Shown in pieces: positions 7,314 through 61,448 of a DNA stretch of 64,000 nt. Position 1 is the stretch's first letter, and each line of letters begins with the position of its first letter. Under the pieces are notes generated by a model. The model saw only the letters and a program-made list of their open reading frames with translations, was not told where the DNA came from and made no database searches. Source of the stretch: Pseudomonas anuradhapurensis (GTDB taxonomy: Bacteria; Pseudomonadota; Gammaproteobacteria; Pseudomonadales; Pseudomonadaceae); the NCBI RefSeq assembly GCF_014269225.2, contig NZ_CP077097.1:1804001-1868000 (forward strand). Reading direction: 5' to 3'. A program made the translations under genes and the position numbers.

Positions 7314-8348
7314 ATGAAATTGAAAAACACCTTGGGCTTGGCCATTGGTTCGCTTGTAGCCGCCACTTCGATTGGCGCTATGGCGCAAGGCCAAGGCGCC
7401 GTCGAAACTGAAGTCTTCTACAAGAAAGAGTTCTTCGACAGCCAGCGCGACTTCAAGAACGACGGCAACCTGTTCGGCGGTTCGATCGGTTACTTCCTGA
7501 CCGACGACGTTGAGCTGCGTCTGGGCTACGACGAAGTTCACAACGCTCGTGGCGAAGACGGCAAGAACATCAAGGGCTCGAACACCGCCCTGGACGCCGT
7601 TTACCACTTCAACAACCCGTACGACGCTATCCGTCCGTACGTTTCCGCTGGTTTCTCGCACCAGTCGCTGGGCCAGACCGGCCGTGGCGGTCGTGACCAC
7701 TCCACCTTCGCCAACGTTGGCGCTGGCGCCAAGTGGTACATCACCGACATGTTCTACGCCCGTGCTGGCGTTGAAGCTCAGTACAACATCGACCAGGGCG
7801 ACACCGAGTGGGCCCCGAGCGTTGGCGTTGGCCTGAACTTCGGCGGTAGCCCGAAGCAAGCTGAAGCTGCTCCGGCTCCTGTTGCTGAAGTCTGCTCCGA
7901 CTCCGACAACGACGGCGTTTGCGACAACGTTGACAAGTGCCCGGACACCCCGGCCAACGTTACCGTTGACGCTGATGGCTGCCCGGCTGTTGCCGAAGTC
8001 GTTCGCGTTGAGCTGGACGTCAAGTTCGACTTCGACAAGTCGGTCGTCAAGCCAAACAGCTACGGCGACATCAAGAACCTGGCTGACTTCATGAAGCAGT
8101 ACCCACAGACCACCACCACCGTGGAAGGTCACACTGACTCCGTCGGCCCAGACGCTTACAACCAGAAGCTGTCCGAGCGTCGTGCCAACGCTGTCAAGCA
8201 GGTCCTGACCCAGCAGTACGGCGTAGAAGCTAGCCGTGTTGACTCGGTAGGCTACGGCGAAACCCGTCCGGTTGCCGACAACGCCACCGAAGAAGGCCGC
8301 GCTATCAACCGTCGCGTTGAAGCTCAGGTAGAAGCCCAGGCCAAGTAA
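7314..8348 (+). CDS. oprF: Major outer-membrane porin OprF
   Basis: A 344-residue OmpA-family porin that links outer membrane to peptidoglycan. Residues 1-24 are a signal peptide ending at AMA. An eight-strand beta-barrel follows (about 25-180). A proline/alanine linker then leads to a cysteine-containing, thrombospondin-3-like calcium motif (DSDNDGVCDNVDKCPDTP), and a C-terminal OmpA domain carries the peptidoglycan-binding residues in VEGHTDSVGPDAYNQKLSER. Codon use is visibly biased to GCT, GTT and CGT compared with all neighbours, as expected for one of the most abundant proteins in the cell. It lies directly downstream of sigX and ends at a strong terminator. Confidence 0.98.
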   Translation: MKLKNTLGLAIGSLVAATSIGAMAQGQGAVETEVFYKKEFFDSQRDFKNDGNLFGGSIGYFLTDDVELRLGYDEVHNARGEDGKNIKGSNTALDAVYHFNNPYDAIRPYVSAGFSHQSLGQTGRGGRDHSTFANVGAGAKWYITDMFYARAGVEAQYNIDQGDTEWAPSVGVGLNFGGSPKQAEAAPAPVAEVCSDSDNDGVCDNVDKCPDTPANVTVDADGCPAVAEVVRVELDVKFDFDKSVVKPNSYGDIKNLADFMKQYPQTTTTVEGHTDSVGPDAYNQKLSERRANAVKQVLTQQYGVEASRVDSVGYGETRPVADNATEEGRAINRRVEAQVEAQAK

Positions 8349-8484: not shown

Positions 8485-9225
8485 TCAGCCGGCTGCTGCC
8501 ACCAATGGCTGAACCGCCTGTTCCCCAACCACCTCGCCAATCACCAATATCGCCGGGCTACGCAAGCCAAACCCCCGCGCAGCCTCCACCATCCCGCGCA
8601 CATCGCTCCAGCATGCCCGCTGTTGTGGCAACGAGGCATTCTCGATCATCGCCACCGGCATTCCCGGTGCCATGCCGCCGTCCAGCAGCCCCTGGCGCAC
8701 CTGCTCCAGTCGTGCCACGCCCATGTACACCACCAACGTGGTTCCGCCCTGGGCCAAGGCCGCCCAGTTCAGTTCGCTGTCGTCCTGGGTATGCGCCGTG
8801 ACCAACGTCACGCCCCGGCTCACACCCCGTGAGGTCAGGGAAATGCCACACTGCGTGGCGCCGGCCAGGCCGGCGGTGATGCCGTTGATCACTTCCACCT
8901 CGATGCCATGCCCCTGCAGCCACAGCGCCTCTTCGCCACCACGGCCAAAAATGCACGGGTCGCCCCCTTTCAGGCGTACCACGCAACGCCCTTGCCGGGC
9001 ATGGCGCAACATCAGGCGCTGGATGAACGCTTGCGGCGTGGAGCGGCAGCCACCGCGCTTGCCCACGGCAATCACCCGGGCCTGGGGGCAATGCTCCAGC
9101 ACTGCCGGGTTGACCAGGTCGTCGATCATCACCACGGCGGCCTGCCGCAGGGCGCGCACGGCCTTGAGGGTGAGCAACTCAGGGTCACCAGGGCCGGCAC
9201 CGACCAGCCAGACTTTCGCATTCAT
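8485..9225 (-). CDS. cobA: Uroporphyrinogen-III C-methyltransferase
   Basis: Methylates uroporphyrinogen III twice with S-adenosylmethionine to give precorrin-2, the branch point to siroheme (nitrite and sulfite reductase cofactor) and cobalamin. The 246-residue product has the SUMT signatures VGAGPGDPELLTLKAV at the N terminus and RLKGGDPCIFGRGGEE. A GAGGAA lies six bases before ATG 9225. It is last in the nasA transcription unit, 27 bases after the kinase gene, which fits a role in siroheme supply for assimilatory nitrite reductase. Unlike CysG it lacks the dehydrogenase/ferrochelatase domain. Confidence 0.94.
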   Translation of the reverse strand: MNAKVWLVGAGPGDPELLTLKAVRALRQAAVVMIDDLVNPAVLEHCPQARVIAVGKRGGCRSTPQAFIQRLMLRHARQGRCVVRLKGGDPCIFGRGGEEALWLQGHGIEVEVINGITAGLAGATQCGISLTSRGVSRGVTLVTAHTQDDSELNWAALAQGGTTLVVYMGVARLEQVRQGLLDGGMAPGMPVAMIENASLPQQRACWSDVRGMVEAARGFGLRSPAILVIGEVVGEQAVQPLVAAAG

Positions 9226-9252
9226 CAGCATTTCCTCTTTGGCGTCGAGCAT

Positions 9253-10923
9253 TCAGCCCTTGAGCAGGGTGAGCAGCAAGATCAGGTTGAACAGCAAGGA
9301 CAGCAGGGCCAGGGTGCGCCACACCTTCAGTGGCTCGCGCTCCAGCAGTGGGCGTGGCCGGTCCGGCAGTTCCTGGCGGTCGCCGCGCTCGAGCAGCAGC
9401 AACCAGTGTTCGGCGGTTTCGAAACGTTGCGCCGGGTCGGCCGCCACTGCCTGCTGCAGGTTGTGCTGCAGCCATTCCGGCAGGTCGGGGCGATAGCGCG
9501 CGGCGCTGACCGGCTGGCCGAAGCGCGGGCGCTGGAAGGCCTCGACCTCGCCGTACGGGTAATGCCCGGTCAGCAGGTGATACAGCGTAACGCCTACGGC
9601 ATACAGGTCCTGGCGCGGGCTCGGCGGTTGGCCATCGAACGCTTCCGGGGCAATGTACGAGGGCGTGCCCGGCAGCTCGTGCAGCGCGTCTTCGGACAGC
9701 CCCGGGCAGTAGGCCAGGCCGAAGTCCAACAGGCGTAGCTGGCCGTCGCTGCCCAGGTGCAGGTTCTGCGGCTTGATGTCGCGGTGCAGCAGGTTGCGCC
9801 GGTGCAGCACGCCGACCGCCTGCAGCAGTTGCCGGGCCAGCTCCAGCCACTGCGACAGGGGCAGTGGGCCGTGCTCGGCGAGCAGCGCCGCCAGGCTCTG
9901 GCCGGGGTATTCGCGCATCACGTAGTACAGGTGCTGGCGTTGGCTGGCCGGGTGCAGCTCGGGGAAGTGGCGGCCGGCGACCCGGCGCAGGAACCACTCC
10001 TCCAGCAGCAGGCCTTGCGCCGCGCCGGGCGCCTGCTCGCGCGCGGCGGGCAGGGTCTTGAGCAGCCAGGGCTGGCCGTGGCCATCGCGTACCCGGTACA
10101 GCAGCGACTGGCGGCTGTGGGCGAGCAGCTTTTCGGCCTGCCAGCCATCGATTGCCTGGCCCTCGCGCAGCGGGCCAGGTAGCGGCCATTGCTGCAGTTG
10201 GGCCAGGGTGTCGCCGAGGTTGGCCGTGCCCAGCTGCTCGACCTGCACCAGCAAGGCACTGGCGTTGTCCTGGCTGCCGTTGAGGTGCGCGCTGGCAACC
10301 AGGGTATCGACGGCCAGTTGCAGGTCGGGTTGCTCGCGCAACACCGCCTGGATGTGCTGGTCGCCCAGGCTGGCCCAGACCCCGTCGCTGAGCAGCAGGA
10401 AGCATTCACCGGCCTGCAGCTCGCCTTCCAGATAATCCACCAGCAGGTGCTGGTCCAGGCCCAGCGCACGCTTGAGCACATGTTGCATGCCGGGCTGGTC
10501 CCACACGTGGTCTTCGCTCAGGCACTGCAGGCGCCCGGCGTGCCAGCGGTACACCCGGCAATCGCCGACGTGGGCAAGGGTAAAGCGCCGGCCACGCAGC
10601 ACCAGCGCGCTGAGGGTGGTCAGCAACGGCTGGCCGCTGCCTTGGGCACGCAGCCAGCGATTCTGCGCCAGCAGCAGGCGGTCGAGGGCCTGGGCCACGC
10701 TCCAGGTCGCGGGGGTGGCGTAGTAGTCCAGGGCCAGCGCCTGCAGGCTGGCGCGTGCCGCCAGGCCACCATCGGCGCATTGGCTGACGCCGTCGGCGAG
10801 GGCGAACAGGTAGCCCTTGCTGGCGGCCAGCTCTGGCGCCGGGGTGACCAGGCGCAGGGCATCCTGGTTTTCCTCGCGCGGCCCGGTGGCGCTGGCCTGG
10901 GCAAAACTCAGTTGCAGGCTCAT
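9253..10923 (-). CDS. PP2C phosphatase - Ser/Thr kinase fusion with C-terminal membrane anchor
   Basis: A 556-residue two-domain signalling protein. Residues about 1-240 form a PP2C-type phosphatase (REENQDAL, LADGVS, AHVGDCRVYR, LLSDGVW, SQDNASALL). About 260-515 form a Hanks-type kinase: lysine in WLLKTLP, catalytic HRDIKPQN near residue 380, a DFG motif, and GTPSYIAPE. The usual glycine-rich ATP loop is not recognisable. A hydrophobic segment at about 530-552 would tail-anchor the protein. It lies 9 bases after nasA, between the nitrate transporter and cobA, so it is presumably made during nitrate assimilation; in P. aeruginosa a homologue occupies the same operon. Its substrate is unknown. 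Confidence 0.9.
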   Translation of the reverse strand: MSLQLSFAQASATGPREENQDALRLVTPAPELAASKGYLFALADGVSQCADGGLAARASLQALALDYYATPATWSVAQALDRLLLAQNRWLRAQGSGQPLLTTLSALVLRGRRFTLAHVGDCRVYRWHAGRLQCLSEDHVWDQPGMQHVLKRALGLDQHLLVDYLEGELQAGECFLLLSDGVWASLGDQHIQAVLREQPDLQLAVDTLVASAHLNGSQDNASALLVQVEQLGTANLGDTLAQLQQWPLPGPLREGQAIDGWQAEKLLAHSRQSLLYRVRDGHGQPWLLKTLPAAREQAPGAAQGLLLEEWFLRRVAGRHFPELHPASQRQHLYYVMREYPGQSLAALLAEHGPLPLSQWLELARQLLQAVGVLHRRNLLHRDIKPQNLHLGSDGQLRLLDFGLAYCPGLSEDALHELPGTPSYIAPEAFDGQPPSPRQDLYAVGVTLYHLLTGHYPYGEVEAFQRPRFGQPVSAARYRPDLPEWLQHNLQQAVAADPAQRFETAEHWLLLLERGDRQELPDRPRPLLEREPLKVWRTLALLSLLFNLILLLTLLKG

Positions 10924-10932
10924 TGGTGTGCC

Positions 10933-12144
10933 TCAGACCCGCGCCGCGGTAACGGCTGCCGAGCCCCAGGTGGTGCGCCAGCGCTGTTTGACGCCATGCA
11001 GGCCGAACCAGGCCAGCAGGCCCAGGCTGGCGAACAGCCACAAGCCCAGTTGGTAGTCACCGGTGTGCTGCTTGATGGTGCCGAGACCGGCCGCCAGCAG
11101 GAAGCCACCGATGCCGCCGGCCATGCCGATCAGCCCGGTCATCACGCCGATCTCCTGGCGGAAGCGTTGCGGCACCAGCTGGAACACTGCGCCATTGCCG
11201 GCACCAAGGCCCAGCATCGCACTGACGAACAGCGCCAGGGCGGCGGCCGCGCTGGGCAGGTTGAAGCCGACCGCAGCGATGCAGATGGCCGCCACGCTGT
11301 ACATGCCCAGCAGGGTGCGGATGCCGCCGAAGCGGTCGGCAAGCGCGCCGCCGAGCGGGCGCATCAGGCTGCCGGCGAACACGCAGGCGGCGGTGTAGTA
11401 GCCGGCGGTGACCGGGCTCAGGCGGTACTGGTCGCTGAAGTAGCCGGGCAGGGCGCTGGCCAGCCCAATGAAGCCACCGAAGGTGACACTGTAGAAGAAC
11501 ATGAACCACCAGCTGTCGCGGTCGCCCAGGGCCTTGAGGTAGTCGGCCATGGCTTTCGGCTTGGGCCGCTGCGGAGCATTGCGTGCCAGCAGGGCGAACA
11601 CCAGCAGTGCCAGCGACAGCGGTATCAGCGCGAAGCCGAACACGTTGTTCCAGCCAAAGCCTGCGGCCAGCGCCGGTGCCAACAGGGCGGCGAACACCGT
11701 GCCGGAGTTGCCGGCCCCGGCAATACCCATGGCCTTGCCCTGATGCTGCGGTGGGTACCACTGCGAGGCCAGCGGCAGCGACACGGCGAACGAGGCGCCG
11801 GCAAAGCCGAGGAACACGCCCAGCAGCAGCGCCTGTTCATAGCTGCGCACGCCCAGGTGCCAGGCTGCCGCAAGCGCGACGATGACCACCACCTGGCCGA
11901 TCAACCCGGCGGTTTTCGGCGACAGGCGGTCGACCAGCACGCCCATGGCGAAGCGCAGGATCGCCCCGGCCAGGATCGGTGTGGCCACCATCAGGCCCCG
12001 TTGTTGTGCGCTCAGTTGCAGGTCGGCGGCAATCTGCACCGCCAGCGGGCCGAGCAGGTACCAGACCATGAAGCTGAGGTCGAAGTACAGGAACGCGGCG
12101 AACAGGGTGGGCACATGCCCGGATTTCCAGAAGCTGGTACTCAT
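10933..12144 (-). CDS. nasA: Nitrate transporter, MFS (NarK/NasA type)
   Basis: A 403-residue major-facilitator protein of the nitrate/nitrite porter branch, with about twelve hydrophobic segments. It takes up nitrate for assimilation across the inner membrane. The N-terminal half has FDLSFMVWYLLGPL and the loop FAMGVLVDRLSPK; a nitrate-signature-like glycine-rich helix appears as GIAGAGNSGTVFAALL, and a second one as GMAGGIGGF. GAGG seven bases before ATG 12144 sets the start. It is the first gene after a sigma-54 promoter and a terminator-containing leader, and heads the nasA-kinase-cobA unit. Confidence 0.93.
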   Translation of the reverse strand: MSTSFWKSGHVPTLFAAFLYFDLSFMVWYLLGPLAVQIAADLQLSAQQRGLMVATPILAGAILRFAMGVLVDRLSPKTAGLIGQVVVIVALAAAWHLGVRSYEQALLLGVFLGFAGASFAVSLPLASQWYPPQHQGKAMGIAGAGNSGTVFAALLAPALAAGFGWNNVFGFALIPLSLALLVFALLARNAPQRPKPKAMADYLKALGDRDSWWFMFFYSVTFGGFIGLASALPGYFSDQYRLSPVTAGYYTAACVFAGSLMRPLGGALADRFGGIRTLLGMYSVAAICIAAVGFNLPSAAAALALFVSAMLGLGAGNGAVFQLVPQRFRQEIGVMTGLIGMAGGIGGFLLAAGLGTIKQHTGDYQLGLWLFASLGLLAWFGLHGVKQRWRTTWGSAAVTAARV

Positions 12145-12175
12145 CGAACACCTCACTTGGCAATGCAGCGGAACG

Positions 12176-12225
12176 AAAAAGACGCCGCTTCCCGCTCCAC
12201 GGGTGTGGAGGGGAGAGCGACGTCT
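12176..12225 (-). terminator. Attenuator terminator in the nasA leader
   Basis: Read on the minus strand, AGACGTCGCT pairs with AGCGGCGTCT over ten positions (one G-U), with an inner CTCCAC/GTGGAG stem, followed immediately by a T run. It sits 31 bases upstream of the nasA ATG. Its 5' arm overlaps the second ANTAR-type hairpin, so the two structures exclude each other. Confidence 0.85.
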
Positions 12226-12261
12226 TTGTCGGGATCAAGTGGGCAACCGCCGTTGGTTACC
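12218..12261 (-). promoter_or_regulatory. ANTAR (NasT) target: tandem hexaloop hairpins
   Basis: Two hairpins lie in the transcribed nasA leader. Hairpin 1 (12242-12261) has a 7-bp stem GGTAACC/GGTTGCC with loop AACGGC. Hairpin 2 (12218-12231) has stem CGAC/GTCG with loop AAAGAC. Both loops are six bases with A at position 1 and G at position 4, which is the recognition pattern described for ANTAR antiterminators such as NasR and EutV. A 10-base linker separates them, and hairpin 2 shares bases with the terminator arm. Confidence 0.8.
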
Positions 12262-12275
12262 GGTGCAATTCGTTC

Positions 12276-12292
12276 AGCAAGAGATGGGCCAA
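12276..12292 (-). promoter_or_regulatory. Sigma-54 promoter of nasA
   Basis: On the minus strand TTGGCCCATCTCTTGCT matches the -24/-12 consensus closely, with GG and GC exactly 10 bases apart. Transcription would begin near 12265, giving a leader of about 120 bases that contains both hexaloop hairpins and the terminator. No clear NtrC palindrome was seen in the short gap up to nasT. Confidence 0.8.
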
Positions 12293-12314
12293 CTTTGCCA
12301 AGCGACCGGGTATT

Positions 12315-12427
12315 TGTAGGAGCGGCCTTGCGTCGCGATGGGCTGCGCAGCAGCCCCGAATTTCAGCCTGCAGCACAGATTGCCGGGGCTGCTGCGCAGC
12401 CCATCGCGACGCAAGGCCGCTCCTACA
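12315..12427. repeat. REP doublet (family A), perfect arms
   Basis: Two 43-bp arms (12315-12357 and 12385-12427) are perfect reverse complements, separated by 27 bases. Each arm begins TGTAGGAGCGGCCTTGCG and contains its own GGGCTGC/GCAGCCC hairpin. The doublet sits in the nasT-nasA gap, 22 bases upstream of the sigma-54 promoter, in the space where an activator site would be expected. Confidence 0.95.
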
Positions 12428-12450
12428 GGGGGGCCGCGTGAAGCAGGTTG

Positions 12451-13026
12451 CTAACCGAGCATCTCGTGCATGGCGATGATCTGCTCGGCTACCTGGATCA
12501 GCTTCTGCTGGCGGCTCATGGCCTGCCGGCGCATCAGGGTGTAGGCCTGTTCCTCGTTGCAGTCCTTCATTTTCATCAGCAAGCCCTTGGCCTGCTCGAC
12601 ACGCTTGCGCTCGGCCAGTTGCTGGTCGCGCGCCTGCAACTGCGCCTTCAGCGCCTGGTCACTTTCGAAGCGGGCCATGGCCACATCCAGGATCGGCTGC
12701 AGCCGTGCGGCATGGATGCCTTCGACGATGTAGGCGCTGACGCCGGCCTGGATCGCCTGGCGCATCACTGCGGGGTCGTGTTCGTCGGTAAACAGCACAA
12801 TCGGGCGTGGCTGGTCCCGGCTGACCAGTACCACCTGCTCCATCACGTCACGGTCTGGTGAATCGGTATCGATCAGCACCACGTCCGGGCGCACTGTTTC
12901 GACGCAGGCAGGCAGGTCGATGGTCAGGCCTGGGGCTTCGATCACCTCGAAACCGGCCTCGCTCAGTGCCGCCTTGAGACGGCCGAGTTTGTTCTGGGTA
13001 TCGTCGATCAGCAGGATACGCAACAT
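12451..13026 (-). CDS. nasT: NasT, ANTAR-domain antiterminator
   Basis: A 191-residue regulator that binds leader RNA and allows transcription into nitrate-assimilation genes. Residues 1-120 are a receiver-like domain (LRILLIDDTQ, with DTDSPD at the usual phosphoacceptor region). The C-terminal coiled-coil and ANTAR domain covers about 130-190 (ERKRVEQAKGLLMKMKDCNE, AYTLMRRQAM). AGGGGG six to seven bases upstream favours ATG 13026 over the ATG two codons before it. It lies 11 bases after nasS. In the known NasS-NasT systems NasS holds NasT inactive until nitrate or nitrite binds. Confidence 0.95.
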   Translation of the reverse strand: MLRILLIDDTQNKLGRLKAALSEAGFEVIEAPGLTIDLPACVETVRPDVVLIDTDSPDRDVMEQVVLVSRDQPRPIVLFTDEHDPAVMRQAIQAGVSAYIVEGIHAARLQPILDVAMARFESDQALKAQLQARDQQLAERKRVEQAKGLLMKMKDCNEEQAYTLMRRQAMSRQQKLIQVAEQIIAMHEMLG

Positions 13027-13037
13027 GCTCATCCCCC

Positions 13038-14252
13038 TTACGCGCCGACGCGAGCATCGGGCAGCTCGCCCAGGGCATGCAGGCGGAAACTGCGGGCATA
13101 GGCGTAGGGATCGCTGCCATCCCAGCGGGTACCGTCGATCAGCAGGCTGCTGCGCATGGGCTGCTCGGGGCAGGCCACGCCCAGGCTCTGTGCCGCTTCA
13201 CGGTACAGGGCCAGTTGCTGCACCTGGCTGGCCACGCCGAGGTAGTCGGGGTCTTCGCGCAGCAGGCCCCAGCGGCGGAATTGGGTCATGAACCACATGC
13301 CGTCGGACAGGTAGGGCAGGTTGGCCTGGCCATGGTCGTGCAGGCGCAGGGCGTGCGGGTCTTGCCAGTGATTGCCCAGGCCGTCCTGGTAATGGCCGAG
13401 CAGGCGCGGTTCGATGCGCTCCAGCGGGGTGTCCAGGTAGGCGCTGCCACTGAGCAGCTGTGCGGTGCTGCGGCGGTTCTCCGGGCTTTGCTCGATGAAG
13501 CGGCTGGCGGCGAGGATCGCCTTGATCAAAGCGCGGGCGCTGTTGGGGTACTGTTCGGCGAAGGCACGGGCACAGGCCAGGACCTTTTCCGGGTGGTCCG
13601 GCCAGATCGACTGGCTGGTGGCCAGGGTGAAGCCCTGGCCCCTGGCCACCGCATCGGCGGCCCAGGGTTCGCCCACGCAGAAACCGTCGATGCGCCCGGC
13701 CTGGATGTGCGCAGCCATCTGCGCTGGCGGCACCACTACGCTATCGACGTCGCGCAGCGGGTGGATGCCCTGGCTGGCCAGCCAGTAATACAACCACATG
13801 GCATGGGTGCCGGTGGGGAAGGTCTGGGCGAAGGTCAGTCGTGCGCCATGCTGGTGCACCAGGCGCGCCAATGCCTCGGGGTTGGTCACGCCCTTGCGTT
13901 GCAGGGCCGGCGACAGGTTGATCGCCTGGGCGTTCTGGTTCAGCCCCATGAGCACGGCCATGGCGCTGGCCGGTACGCCGCCGATGCCCAGGTGCACGGC
14001 ATAGGCCAGGCCGTACAGGCAATGTGCGGCATCCAGCTCGCCGCTGACCAGTTTGTCACGCAGCCCAGCCCAGGAACCCTGGCGCTTGAGGTTCAGGGTA
14101 AGGCCATGCTGCTGGGCAAAGCCCTGGGTGGCGGCGACCACCACCGAGGCGCAGTCGGTCAGGGCCATGTAGCCGATGTTCAGGCTGGGCTTTTCCGGCG
14201 CGTCGCTGCCGTTGACCCAGGCCAGGGGCATTGCTCGGGGTGCTGTGTTCAC
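13038..14252 (-). CDS. nasS: NasS, nitrate/nitrite-sensing binding protein
   Basis: A 404-residue protein of the CmpA/NrtA nitrate-binding family that works in the cytosol: it has no signal peptide. Typical stretches are NIGYMALTDCASVVVA, the ligand loop LKRQGSWAGLRDKLVSGELD and GFCVGEPWAADAV. It binds NasT and releases it when nitrate or nitrite is present. I place the start at GTG 14252, which has AGGA six bases upstream; the open frame continues to 14354 but without a better site. It is divergent from pyrD. Confidence 0.92.
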   Translation of the reverse strand: MNTAPRAMPLAWVNGSDAPEKPSLNIGYMALTDCASVVVAATQGFAQQHGLTLNLKRQGSWAGLRDKLVSGELDAAHCLYGLAYAVHLGIGGVPASAMAVLMGLNQNAQAINLSPALQRKGVTNPEALARLVHQHGARLTFAQTFPTGTHAMWLYYWLASQGIHPLRDVDSVVVPPAQMAAHIQAGRIDGFCVGEPWAADAVARGQGFTLATSQSIWPDHPEKVLACARAFAEQYPNSARALIKAILAASRFIEQSPENRRSTAQLLSGSAYLDTPLERIEPRLLGHYQDGLGNHWQDPHALRLHDHGQANLPYLSDGMWFMTQFRRWGLLREDPDYLGVASQVQQLALYREAAQSLGVACPEQPMRSSLLIDGTRWDGSDPYAYARSFRLHALGELPDARVGA

Positions 14253-14409
14253 AAGGTTCCTCGCCCGTACTGATAAGGCTGTGGGCTTGTCTGGTGCAAC
14301 CGATGTGCCATCTGGCGGCAGCACTGGCGCAGTTGCCCCACGATTTGCTGTCATGCCGGCTGCGCGCTGGCTATAATCGCCCCCTCATTCACCCCGAGCC
14401 TCGCCGCCC

Positions 14410-15795: not shown

Positions 15796-16355
15796 AGGGT
15801 GTTGCCCTCACTTGTTGACTGTAATGTCCCGTCGGCCTCTCCGAGGCCGGGCAGAGTCTTTCTGCCGGTGTGCGCTCGCTGCCGGCGTGGCGAGCTGAAA
15901 GTGCCGCCTCGTTGCGAAGCGGCCTGAGACCAGTTCTATCGAATGCGGGTCACGGTGTGAATGATCGATTTGTCATAAGGACGTAACCTTTCCAAGGGTG
16001 ACGGGATAAGTAAATAAATGCGACTCAACCTTGTTTAGCGTTGAGCCCGCTATGATCAGGGTTTGCCGAACCTTGACGCCATTTCGCCAGCGTTGCTGGC
16101 GGATGACGGAAATAATTTGAAATGCGACGAAGGGTCACATTGGCCCCGCCGTCACCAGAATTTTACGTACTGCCTGATGATCTAAGCTGTCCTTGCCGCT
16201 GGGCCAGGCGCAGATTGGTCAGGCGGCCCGGCCGTTCACCGCACGCTCGCGTGCCGGGGAAGGCCACCCGCACACCTGCTGGAAAGGGGTGCGGCAAACA
16301 TCGCGGGGCGATGCGTTGCCCCGTCAGTCAAATAGCCCAAGGCGCTGGATTACTC
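15796..16355. other. Divergent intergenic region rmf / rlmL
   Basis: 560 bases without a gene I trust. It holds a GGCCTC/GAGGCC hairpin near 15837-15855, a CTCAAC...GTTGAG inverted repeat at 16024-16045, a TATGAT hexamer at 16051-16056 that could be a -10 for rlmL, and a tight CGCCAGC/GCTGGCG hairpin at 16085-16101. An open frame running from 16122 into rlmL has no ribosome binding site and no homology to the methyltransferase. Confidence 0.5.
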
Positions 16356-21056: not shown

Positions 21057-21172
21057 TGTAGGAGCGGCCTCGTGTCGCGATGGGCTGCAACGCAGCCCCA
21101 GGATCCAGCTTCGCAATACCAAATGGCTGGGGGCTGCTGCGCAGCCCATCGCGACACGAGGCCGCTCCTACA
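21057..21172. repeat. REP doublet (family A)
   Basis: Arms at 21057-21099 and 21130-21172 in inverted orientation; the outer 30 bases are perfectly complementary and the inner part (GCAACGCAGCCCC versus GCGCAGCAGCCCC when aligned) has a few changes. It lies between the convergent ends of the diguanylate cyclase gene and dacB. Confidence 0.93.
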
Positions 21173-36676: not shown

Positions 36677-36789
36677 GTAGGAGCGGCCTTGTGTCGCGAC
36701 GGGCCGTATAGCGGCCCAAGATTTCAGCTTCGCCGCTACTATCGAGTGGGGGCGCTATGCGCCCCATCGCGACACAAGGCCGCTCCTAC
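36677..36789. repeat. REP doublet (family A)
   Basis: Inverted arms at 36677-36717 and 36749-36789. The outer GTAGGAGCGGCCTTGTGTCG is conserved; the inner hairpins differ between arms (GGGCCGTATAGCGGCCC versus GGGGCGCTATGCGCCCC), each keeping its own complementarity. It lies between the acnA stop and the CPBP protease start, both on the minus strand. Confidence 0.92.
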
Positions 36790-36810
36790 AGCGGCCCAAG
36801 CATACCCGGT

Positions 36811-40837: not shown

Positions 40838-40895
40838 GCACGGCCCGGTAATTGCCGTTGCTTTTAAGCGCGCGGTAGTGCAGGCGCCGCCGATT

Positions 40896-41073
40896 GCGAC
40901 TTCAGGAGGCCTCACTCCGGCCTTGCTCCCGGGAGGACGCGCTGCAGGCCCCATCCATGGGGCCTCAGCGCTTGACGGGCATCCATGCCCGTCACCTCCC
41001 TCCGCAAGGCCTGCGTTCGGCCTCCTGAAGTCGCGAAGATCAAGATCAAGATCAAGATCAAGATCAAGAGCAA
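40896..41073. repeat. Nested palindromic element with GATCAA tandem tail
   Basis: Perfect 16-bp outer inverted arms (40896-40911 and 41019-41034) enclose further symmetrical parts: GGCCTTGC (40919-40926) with GCAAGGCC (41004-41011), the palindrome CTCCCGGGAG (40926-40935), the hairpin GGCCCC/GGGGCC (40947-40964) and the perfect hairpin GACGGGCAT/ATGCCCGTC (40974-40993). Directly after the right arm come five exact GATCAA units (41038-41067) and a sixth GAGCAA. The whole fills the rlmM-tusA gap (40838-41151), which has no gene I trust. Confidence 0.9.
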
Positions 41074-61334: not shown

Positions 61335-61448
61335 TGTAGGAGCGGCCTTGTGTCGCGATGGGGCGCGCAGCGGCCCCGGTTTTTTGCGCCATAGCTGAAA
61401 TTGCCGGGGCCGCTCTGCGGCCCATCGCGACACAAGGCCGCTCCTACA
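61335..61448. repeat. REP doublet (family A)
   Basis: Inverted arms at 61335-61377 and 61406-61448 with the outer TGTAGGAGCGGCCTTGTGTC conserved and inner hairpins slightly different (GGGGCGCGCAGCGGCCCC versus GGGGCCGCTCTGCGGCCC). It follows the small membrane-protein gene by 20 bases. Confidence 0.93.

Follow-up and report, generated by a model that had tools for sequence, protein, structure and literature searches.

The 64-kb stretch of DNA analysed here, hereafter called the window, carries a regulatory gene pair, a promoter with a leader, and the genes that follow them. In the direction of transcription, the features are:

13038..14354, minus strand: nasS, encoding an NMT1-like sensor of 438 aa (Pfam PF13379, 305 bits)
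12451..13032, minus strand: nasT, encoding a protein of 193 aa with a receiver and an ANTAR domain (Pfam PF03861, 62 bits; PF00072, 36.5 bits)
12277..12291, minus strand: sigma-54 -24/-12 promoter TGGCCCATCTCTTGC, read from the sequence, with GG at 12290-12289 and GC at 12278-12277 (GG-N10-GC)
12145..12265, minus strand: predicted leader transcript up to the nasA ATG, its start placed from the -12 element
12242..12261, minus strand: ANTAR hairpin 1, GGTAACC-AACGGC-GGTTGCC, 7 pairs (12261-12255 with 12248-12242; RNA fold)
12218..12231, minus strand: ANTAR hairpin 2, CGAC-AAAGAC-GTCG, 4 pairs (12231-12228 with 12221-12218; RNA fold)
12176..12227, minus strand: intrinsic terminator AAAGACGTCGCT...AGCGGCGTCTTT and the rest of the T run (RNA fold)
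12142..12144, minus strand: nasA start codon (ATG 12144-12142)
10933..12144, minus strand: nasA, encoding a NarK-family nitrate/nitrite MFS transporter of 403 aa (TIGR00886, 317 bits, above cut-off)
9253..10923, minus strand: gene for a PP2C phosphatase / Ser-Thr kinase fusion (Pfam PF13672 and PF00069), next after nasA in the predicted operon
8485..9252, minus strand: gene for a cobA-type uroporphyrinogen-III C-methyltransferase (TIGR01469, 296 bits), third gene of the predicted operon

A NasS-NasT pair is present, the gene for the NMT1-like sensor adjoining that for the receiver-ANTAR protein, as identified by Pfam domains; from its position and from what we know of the family, we take the former to be nasS. 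By NasT protein, the closest named records are from Pseudomonas, namely P. inefficax and P. hunanensis (98% identity) and P. monteilii (97%), all presumably members of the P. putida group. To judge by spacing, nasA, the kinase fusion gene, and cobA probably constitute one operon. The position of a PP2C-phosphatase/protein-kinase fusion between a nitrate transporter gene and cobA is recorded here as a separate observation.

According to the preliminary description of this DNA, nasT and nasS lie immediately upstream of the leader. They do lie upstream, but not immediately: approx. 160 nt separate nasT from the promoter, and most of this spacer is filled by an inverted repeat (12315-12427) with 32-base arms that are identical to each other, presumably an element of the REP type. 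In the same gap of near relatives, the repeat is missing in one (L142) and present in another (L133), and thus it may be an insertion. Nine Rfam matches at 12312-12427, all weak and under their cut-offs, fall on this repeat and were dismissed. Similar pairs of the repeat occur elsewhere in the window (21057-21172 and 61335-61448), as does a lone arm (36759-36790).

The two hairpins with hexaloops AACGGC and AAAGAC, both described earlier as having A at position 1 and G at position 4, are confirmed by base reading and RNA folding. The loop of hairpin 1 spans 12254-12249, with A1 at 12254 and G4 at 12251, and that of hairpin 2 spans 12227-12222, with A1 at 12227 and G4 at 12224. The terminator and its T run (12180-12176) are likewise present, but the ten pairs first counted are replaced in the RNA fold by an outer stem of 12 pairs (12227-12216 with 12189-12178), inside which lies a bulged stem of 10 pairs; the outermost three pairs join A to the first three T. 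The 5' arm of the terminator (12227-12216) contains the loop and the 3' arm of hairpin 2, and the sharing of bases proposed for these two structures is therefore real. RNA folding of growing chains agrees with the proposal: both hairpins are predicted in chains ending at 12217, 12210, 12200, and 12190, whereas at 12180, once most of the terminator 3' arm has been made, the terminator has displaced hairpin 2. The folding energy falls from -14.2 kcal/mol at 12217 to -44.8 kcal/mol at 12180; as hairpin 2 alone is worth about -3.8 kcal/mol, it would not be expected to win without help. In this folding model, approx. 30 nt of synthesis would provide the interval in which a protein could seize hairpin 2.

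This arrangement exceeds what chance would give. When both strands of the 64 kb were scanned for a composite, defined as an A1/G4 hexaloop hairpin of at least 4 pairs that is preceded by another at a distance of 18-40 nt and overlaps a terminator (no fewer than 7 contiguous pairs from the loop-2 G4, at least 4 T in 8), single A1/G4 hairpins numbered 165 (92 on the plus and 73 on the minus strand), whereas the composite was found once, at 12227. None of 20,000 dinucleotide-shuffled versions of the leader contained it. A simple search for terminators at 12100-12500 returned none, because it demanded loops of 3-8 nt and an unbroken stem followed by 5 T, while the stem in question is longer and bulged.

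Conservation was assessed in 112 Pseudomonas leaders, comprising that of the window, the second copy in the same genome, the 30 best loci of the genus, and 80 picked for spread among the matches listed; the set is non-random, and no two of its members are the same over the first 100 nt taken. Of these leaders, 90 stand before nasA and 22 before nasC (nitrate reductase). Hairpin 1 with an A1/G4 hexaloop is found in all 112 leaders and hairpin 2 in 111, the exception (L148) having GAAGAC, an A-to-G change in loop 2. Loop positions 3, 5, and 6 are variable, as in AACGGC, AACGTC, AACGCA, and AAAGGC. A terminator with 6 or more contiguous pairs inward from the loop-2 G4, followed by 8 nt of which 5 or more are T, is kept in 112/112, and the same test at seven shifted starts gave 20 positives in 784 (19/630 for nasA, 1/154 for nasC). 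This explicit pairing replaced a cruder first pass, which found the terminator in 107/112 and judged the overlap present in 101/106; the leaders that it missed have a T run broken by other bases (5) or lying within the loop (5). Moreover, hairpin 1 has compensatory changes: among its 31 distinct forms, 96.3% of pair cells are standard, compared with a mean of 86.7% and a maximum of 89.9% when the 3' letters are shuffled (n = 1000), and sliding the arms by one lowers the value to 41.9% and 35.5%. Hairpin 2 gives no evidence of this kind, since its pairs hardly vary.

Part of the conservation among the 112 leaders follows from how they were chosen and scored, 111 having been located through the RNA model and the script rules demanding A1 and G4. 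Therefore, a set of 80 loci was also picked by NasT protein; these are the best 80 of 513 and near relatives of each other. The promoter and two hairpins were found in 75 of them by a script that omits the terminator, and all 75 have the loops AACGGC and AAAGAC. At L093, L094, and L122, hairpins are seen further downstream, past the 900 nt scanned, and no leader motif was found in the stretch available at L066 (134 nt after nasT) and L082 (approx. 740 nt).

The -24/-12 promoter claimed earlier can be read at 12291-12277 as GG-N10-GC, and by the usual 12-nt rule transcription would be expected to start near 12265. Alone, the motif is weak evidence, because the genome contains 165 copies of TGGCNCN5TTGC (and 47 of the reversed control pattern); the call gains its weight from conservation among relatives. 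GG-N10-GC is kept in 112/112 leaders, with a -12 element of TTGC in 83 and another NNGC in 29, whereas an earlier pattern missed 7. No NtrC-like site with up to 3 mismatches was found at 12051-13191, i.e., to 0.9 kb upstream of the promoter, and the role of NtrC as activator thus remains presumed. In relatives, such sites (up to 3 mismatches, 248-nt upstream stretches) were found at 24/88 nasA and 16/22 nasC leaders, compared with 10.5 and 3.3 in mononucleotide shuffles; the count is without L016 and L031, which are too close to a contig end. There is thus some excess, and the position of the sites is not fixed. P. protegens Cab57 is likewise reported to have no NtrC site at nalA (PMC3973561).

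From its -24/-12 element onward, the leader belongs to a catalogued family, an identity absent from the preliminary description. Rfam RF03032, 'narK RNA', matches 12217..12290 on the minus strand along the full model (1-72) with 73 bits, against a gathering cut-off of 43.2. In the alignment, model positions 1-15 correspond to the -24/-12 element from its GG onward, and hence approx. a fifth of this RNA model is promoter DNA. Hairpin 1 is the sole stem of the model, while CGACAAAGACGUCG (hairpin 2) is modelled as unpaired and the terminator lies outside. RF03032 thus appears, from this alignment, to combine an ANTAR target with promoter DNA. Since the family already covers the element, the composite is not a new type. 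The family reportedly goes back to Weinberg (2017); in the literature searched, no paper on a 'narK motif' RNA or 'narK RNA' was found, the presumed source paper lying outside that scope. We claim no priority for connecting RF03032 with ANTAR proteins, which the authors of the family may have proposed. Of 149 Pseudomonas genomes, 125 have a match over the cut-off; in a search across the class, RF03032 was matched in 13 of 274 genomes, this one included, with 3 above the cut-off.

A second leader of the same genome (G000:C1:1412862-1412940; RF03032, 48.9 bits) is located 0.4 Mb from that of nasA. It is followed by a gene for a nitrate reductase-like/CysJ-like fusion (1341 aa), whose matches to the NasC and CysJ models are under the curated cut-offs, and by nirB, which is above its own. 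Loss of nirBD-nasC from the genome, with the gap between the kinase gene and cobA as its trace, was considered and rejected, as the nasC-cysJ fusion and nirB are present 0.4 Mb away, preceded by a leader of their own, and as the description of P. putida also places nasST apart from the reductase genes; in strain KT2440, the two loci are given as PP_2093/2094 and PP_1703-1706, respectively (PMC7261876). In all 22 nasC leaders, the second pair of hairpin 2, counted from the loop, is an A-C mismatch, where the terminator pair is C-G in 22/22 (L003, about 7863-7980; others among L177-L202). Due to this mismatch, the reductase genes may have a weaker antiterminator hairpin than nasA.

The second leader also bears on another reading of the nasA upstream region, according to which the terminator does no more than end transcription of nasST (and of a small RNA) constitutively, nasA transcription starts inside or after it, and the hairpins are incidental. 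A terminator between nasT and nasA would indeed serve nasST as well, and the operon leader of P. aeruginosa is described as a small RNA, NalA (PMC3973561). However, a consensus scan of 12100-12500 found no sigma-70-like promoter, both hexaloop hairpins accompany the terminator in 111/112 leaders, and the same composite precedes nasC, 0.4 Mb away, where there is no nasT, given that the genome has one ANTAR match only. We therefore consider a constitutive nasST terminator very unlikely and favour an attenuator read by NasT.

That single ANTAR match, obtained in a search of the whole genome, is NasT itself, inside the window. In 149 Pseudomonas genomes, the leader (RF03032, E ≤0.001; 129 genomes) and NasT (E ≤1e-20; 127 genomes) occur together in 126, the leader alone in 3, NasT alone in 1, and neither in 19 (Fisher p approx. 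6e-20, with genomes taken as independent of shared ancestry). A more permissive RNA search in the 23 genomes without one or both left this table the same. The nasC of the genome with NasT and no RF03032 match (G041) shows only 47% identity, and no composite was found in the 1.5 kb upstream of this gene. The leader could, in principle, be a riboswitch or be read by a protein without an ANTAR domain; Rfam types RF03032 just as Cis-reg, and 3 of the 129 genomes with an RF03032 match have no NasT match. Nevertheless, two of these exceptions (G043 and G068) carry a NIT-ANTAR protein, and in the third (G086), which has no ANTAR match, nasC is not matched at E ≤1e-60, the frame behind the leader starting as nasC and then running into other sequence. 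Furthermore, loop positions 1 and 4 obey the ANTAR rule as it is described in PMC3369931 and PMC8934654. It is hardly credible, then, that a ligand or a non-ANTAR protein reads this leader.

The anatomy of the leader, its conservation, the covariation of hairpin 1, the co-occurrence with nasT, and the finding of no other ANTAR protein all fit, and thereby support, an attenuator controlled by NasT downstream of a sigma-54 promoter; the elements, their overlap, the conservation, and the co-occurrence are direct observations. Several points count against it: hairpin 2 has 4 pairs and no informative covariation, G041 has NasT and no leader that was found, no NtrC-like site was detected, and in Paracoccus mutation of the second hairpin had little effect on nitrate (see below). 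We are confident that the nasA-operon leader of this Pseudomonas, a relative of P. putida, combines a sigma-54 start with NasT-dependent antitermination on nitrate, and the mechanism given in the preliminary description is, on sequence grounds, very probably right. From relatives, we infer release of NasT by NasS, RNA binding, antitermination, and dependence on NtrC, in the following order. Under nitrogen limitation, sigma-54 RNA polymerase would start near 12265, presumably with NtrC as its activator. Without nitrate, NasS would hold NasT, hairpin 1 and the terminator would fold, and a transcript of approx. 90 nt would be released. With nitrate or nitrite, NasS would let go of NasT, which would bind both hairpins as soon as these are made and keep hairpin 2 closed. 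The 5' arm of the terminator would then be occupied as the polymerase crosses the T run, allowing transcription of nasA, the kinase gene, and cobA. The nitrate uptake (nasA) and nitrate reduction (nasC-nirB) genes of this bacterium would thus be placed under one ANTAR protein, and an Rfam family labelled merely as cis-regulatory gains a likely mechanism.

The core mechanism is established, and the leader type is widespread and already catalogued in Pseudomonas; what is added here is that the leader is a member of RF03032, that this model can be dissected into its parts, that the genome has a second leader, and that NasR may in places have replaced NasT as reader (see below). Among the closest known systems is NalA, the nirBD leader, which Romeo (2012) and Nie (2024) are said to have described in P. 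aeruginosa and P. putida, respectively. As described in PMC12830290 and PMC3973561, NalA is alike in its sigma-54 promoter, its terminator leader, its NasT-dependent antitermination, and the pathway served. In particular, a review citing Nie 2024 states that NasT releases the NalA terminator, that the sigma-54 promoter needs NtrC, and that c-di-GMP weakens the release (PMC12830290). Deletion of nasT is reported to abolish growth of P. putida on nitrate (PMC7261876). NalA precedes a reductase operon, whereas the leader in the window precedes nasA, and the likeness is drawn from descriptions.

In Paracoccus denitrificans, nasTS is likewise directly upstream of nasA, there too a nitrate transporter gene. 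NasS and NasT are reported to part on nitrate, and the nitrate-activated complex to shift the nasA leader RNA (PMC3795266). Mutation of the first hairpin, HI, severely lowers expression of a leader-lacZ fusion, and a strain with HI mutated in the chromosome no longer grows on nitrate; in contrast, mutation of the second, HII, is described as hardly altering expression on nitrate (both PMC5424462). The counterpart of HII in the window may be hairpin 2 or the terminator. The Enterococcus eutP leader, read by EutV, also has dual A1/G4 hexaloops with the second hairpin overlapping a terminator (according to PMC3369931 and PMC8934654), but differs in responding to ethanolamine via a histidine kinase, whereas here the signal would be nitrate-dependent release of NasT from NasS. 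The Klebsiella nasF leader, read by NasR, is alike in nitrate-responsive ANTAR antitermination of nitrate assimilation genes, as presented in PMC3369931 and PMC5424462. NasR is a one-component NIT-ANTAR sensor, in contrast to the NasS plus NasT of the window, and this likeness is also drawn from descriptions.

Proteins of the NasR type are encoded by 7 of the 149 Pseudomonas genomes, five without a NasT match (G001, G018, G043, G068, and G147) and two with it (G069 and G080). The leader-only genomes G068 and G043 are among the former, their NasR-type NIT-ANTAR proteins being recognized by domains in G068 and by 65% identity in G043. Both leaders of G068 (L216 and L219) are complete, and the first base of loop 1 is still A in its nasA leader, while the nasC leaders of G068 and G043 (L218) have G at this position (GACGCA and GATGCC). 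It is possible, although we put it forward only tentatively, that RF03032, promoter included, serves Pseudomonas generally as the ANTAR leader for nitrate assimilation and that its readers can change: in at least one lineage (G068), NasT would have been lost and a NIT-ANTAR protein of the NasR type would have taken over both leaders. The G at loop-1 position 1 may then reflect a shift in recognition after the swap, two cases being too few for a rule. Alternatively, these leaders may be read by the second ANTAR protein of each genome, which has an AmiR-type N-terminus (at the cut-off in G068, clear in G043). If true, a change from NasT to NasR would be a natural experiment on recognition by ANTAR domains.

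No composite was found by script within 1.5 kb upstream of nasC at L238, L240, and L242-L245. In G018 and G147, with NasR-type proteins and no NasT match, two-hairpin terminator leaders lie approx. 1.3 kb upstream of nasC-like genes (L239, about 75-195; L241, about 80-175); their hairpin 2 is GGAC-AAAGGC-GTCC, and RF03032 does not match them. Two further RNA elements were seen on the minus strand of the window: a TwoAYGGAY RNA (Rfam RF01731), for which we know of no function, at 40893-41037 (60.9 bits against a cut-off of 43), and the rmf cis-regulatory RNA (RF01755) at 15814-15943 (124.7 bits).
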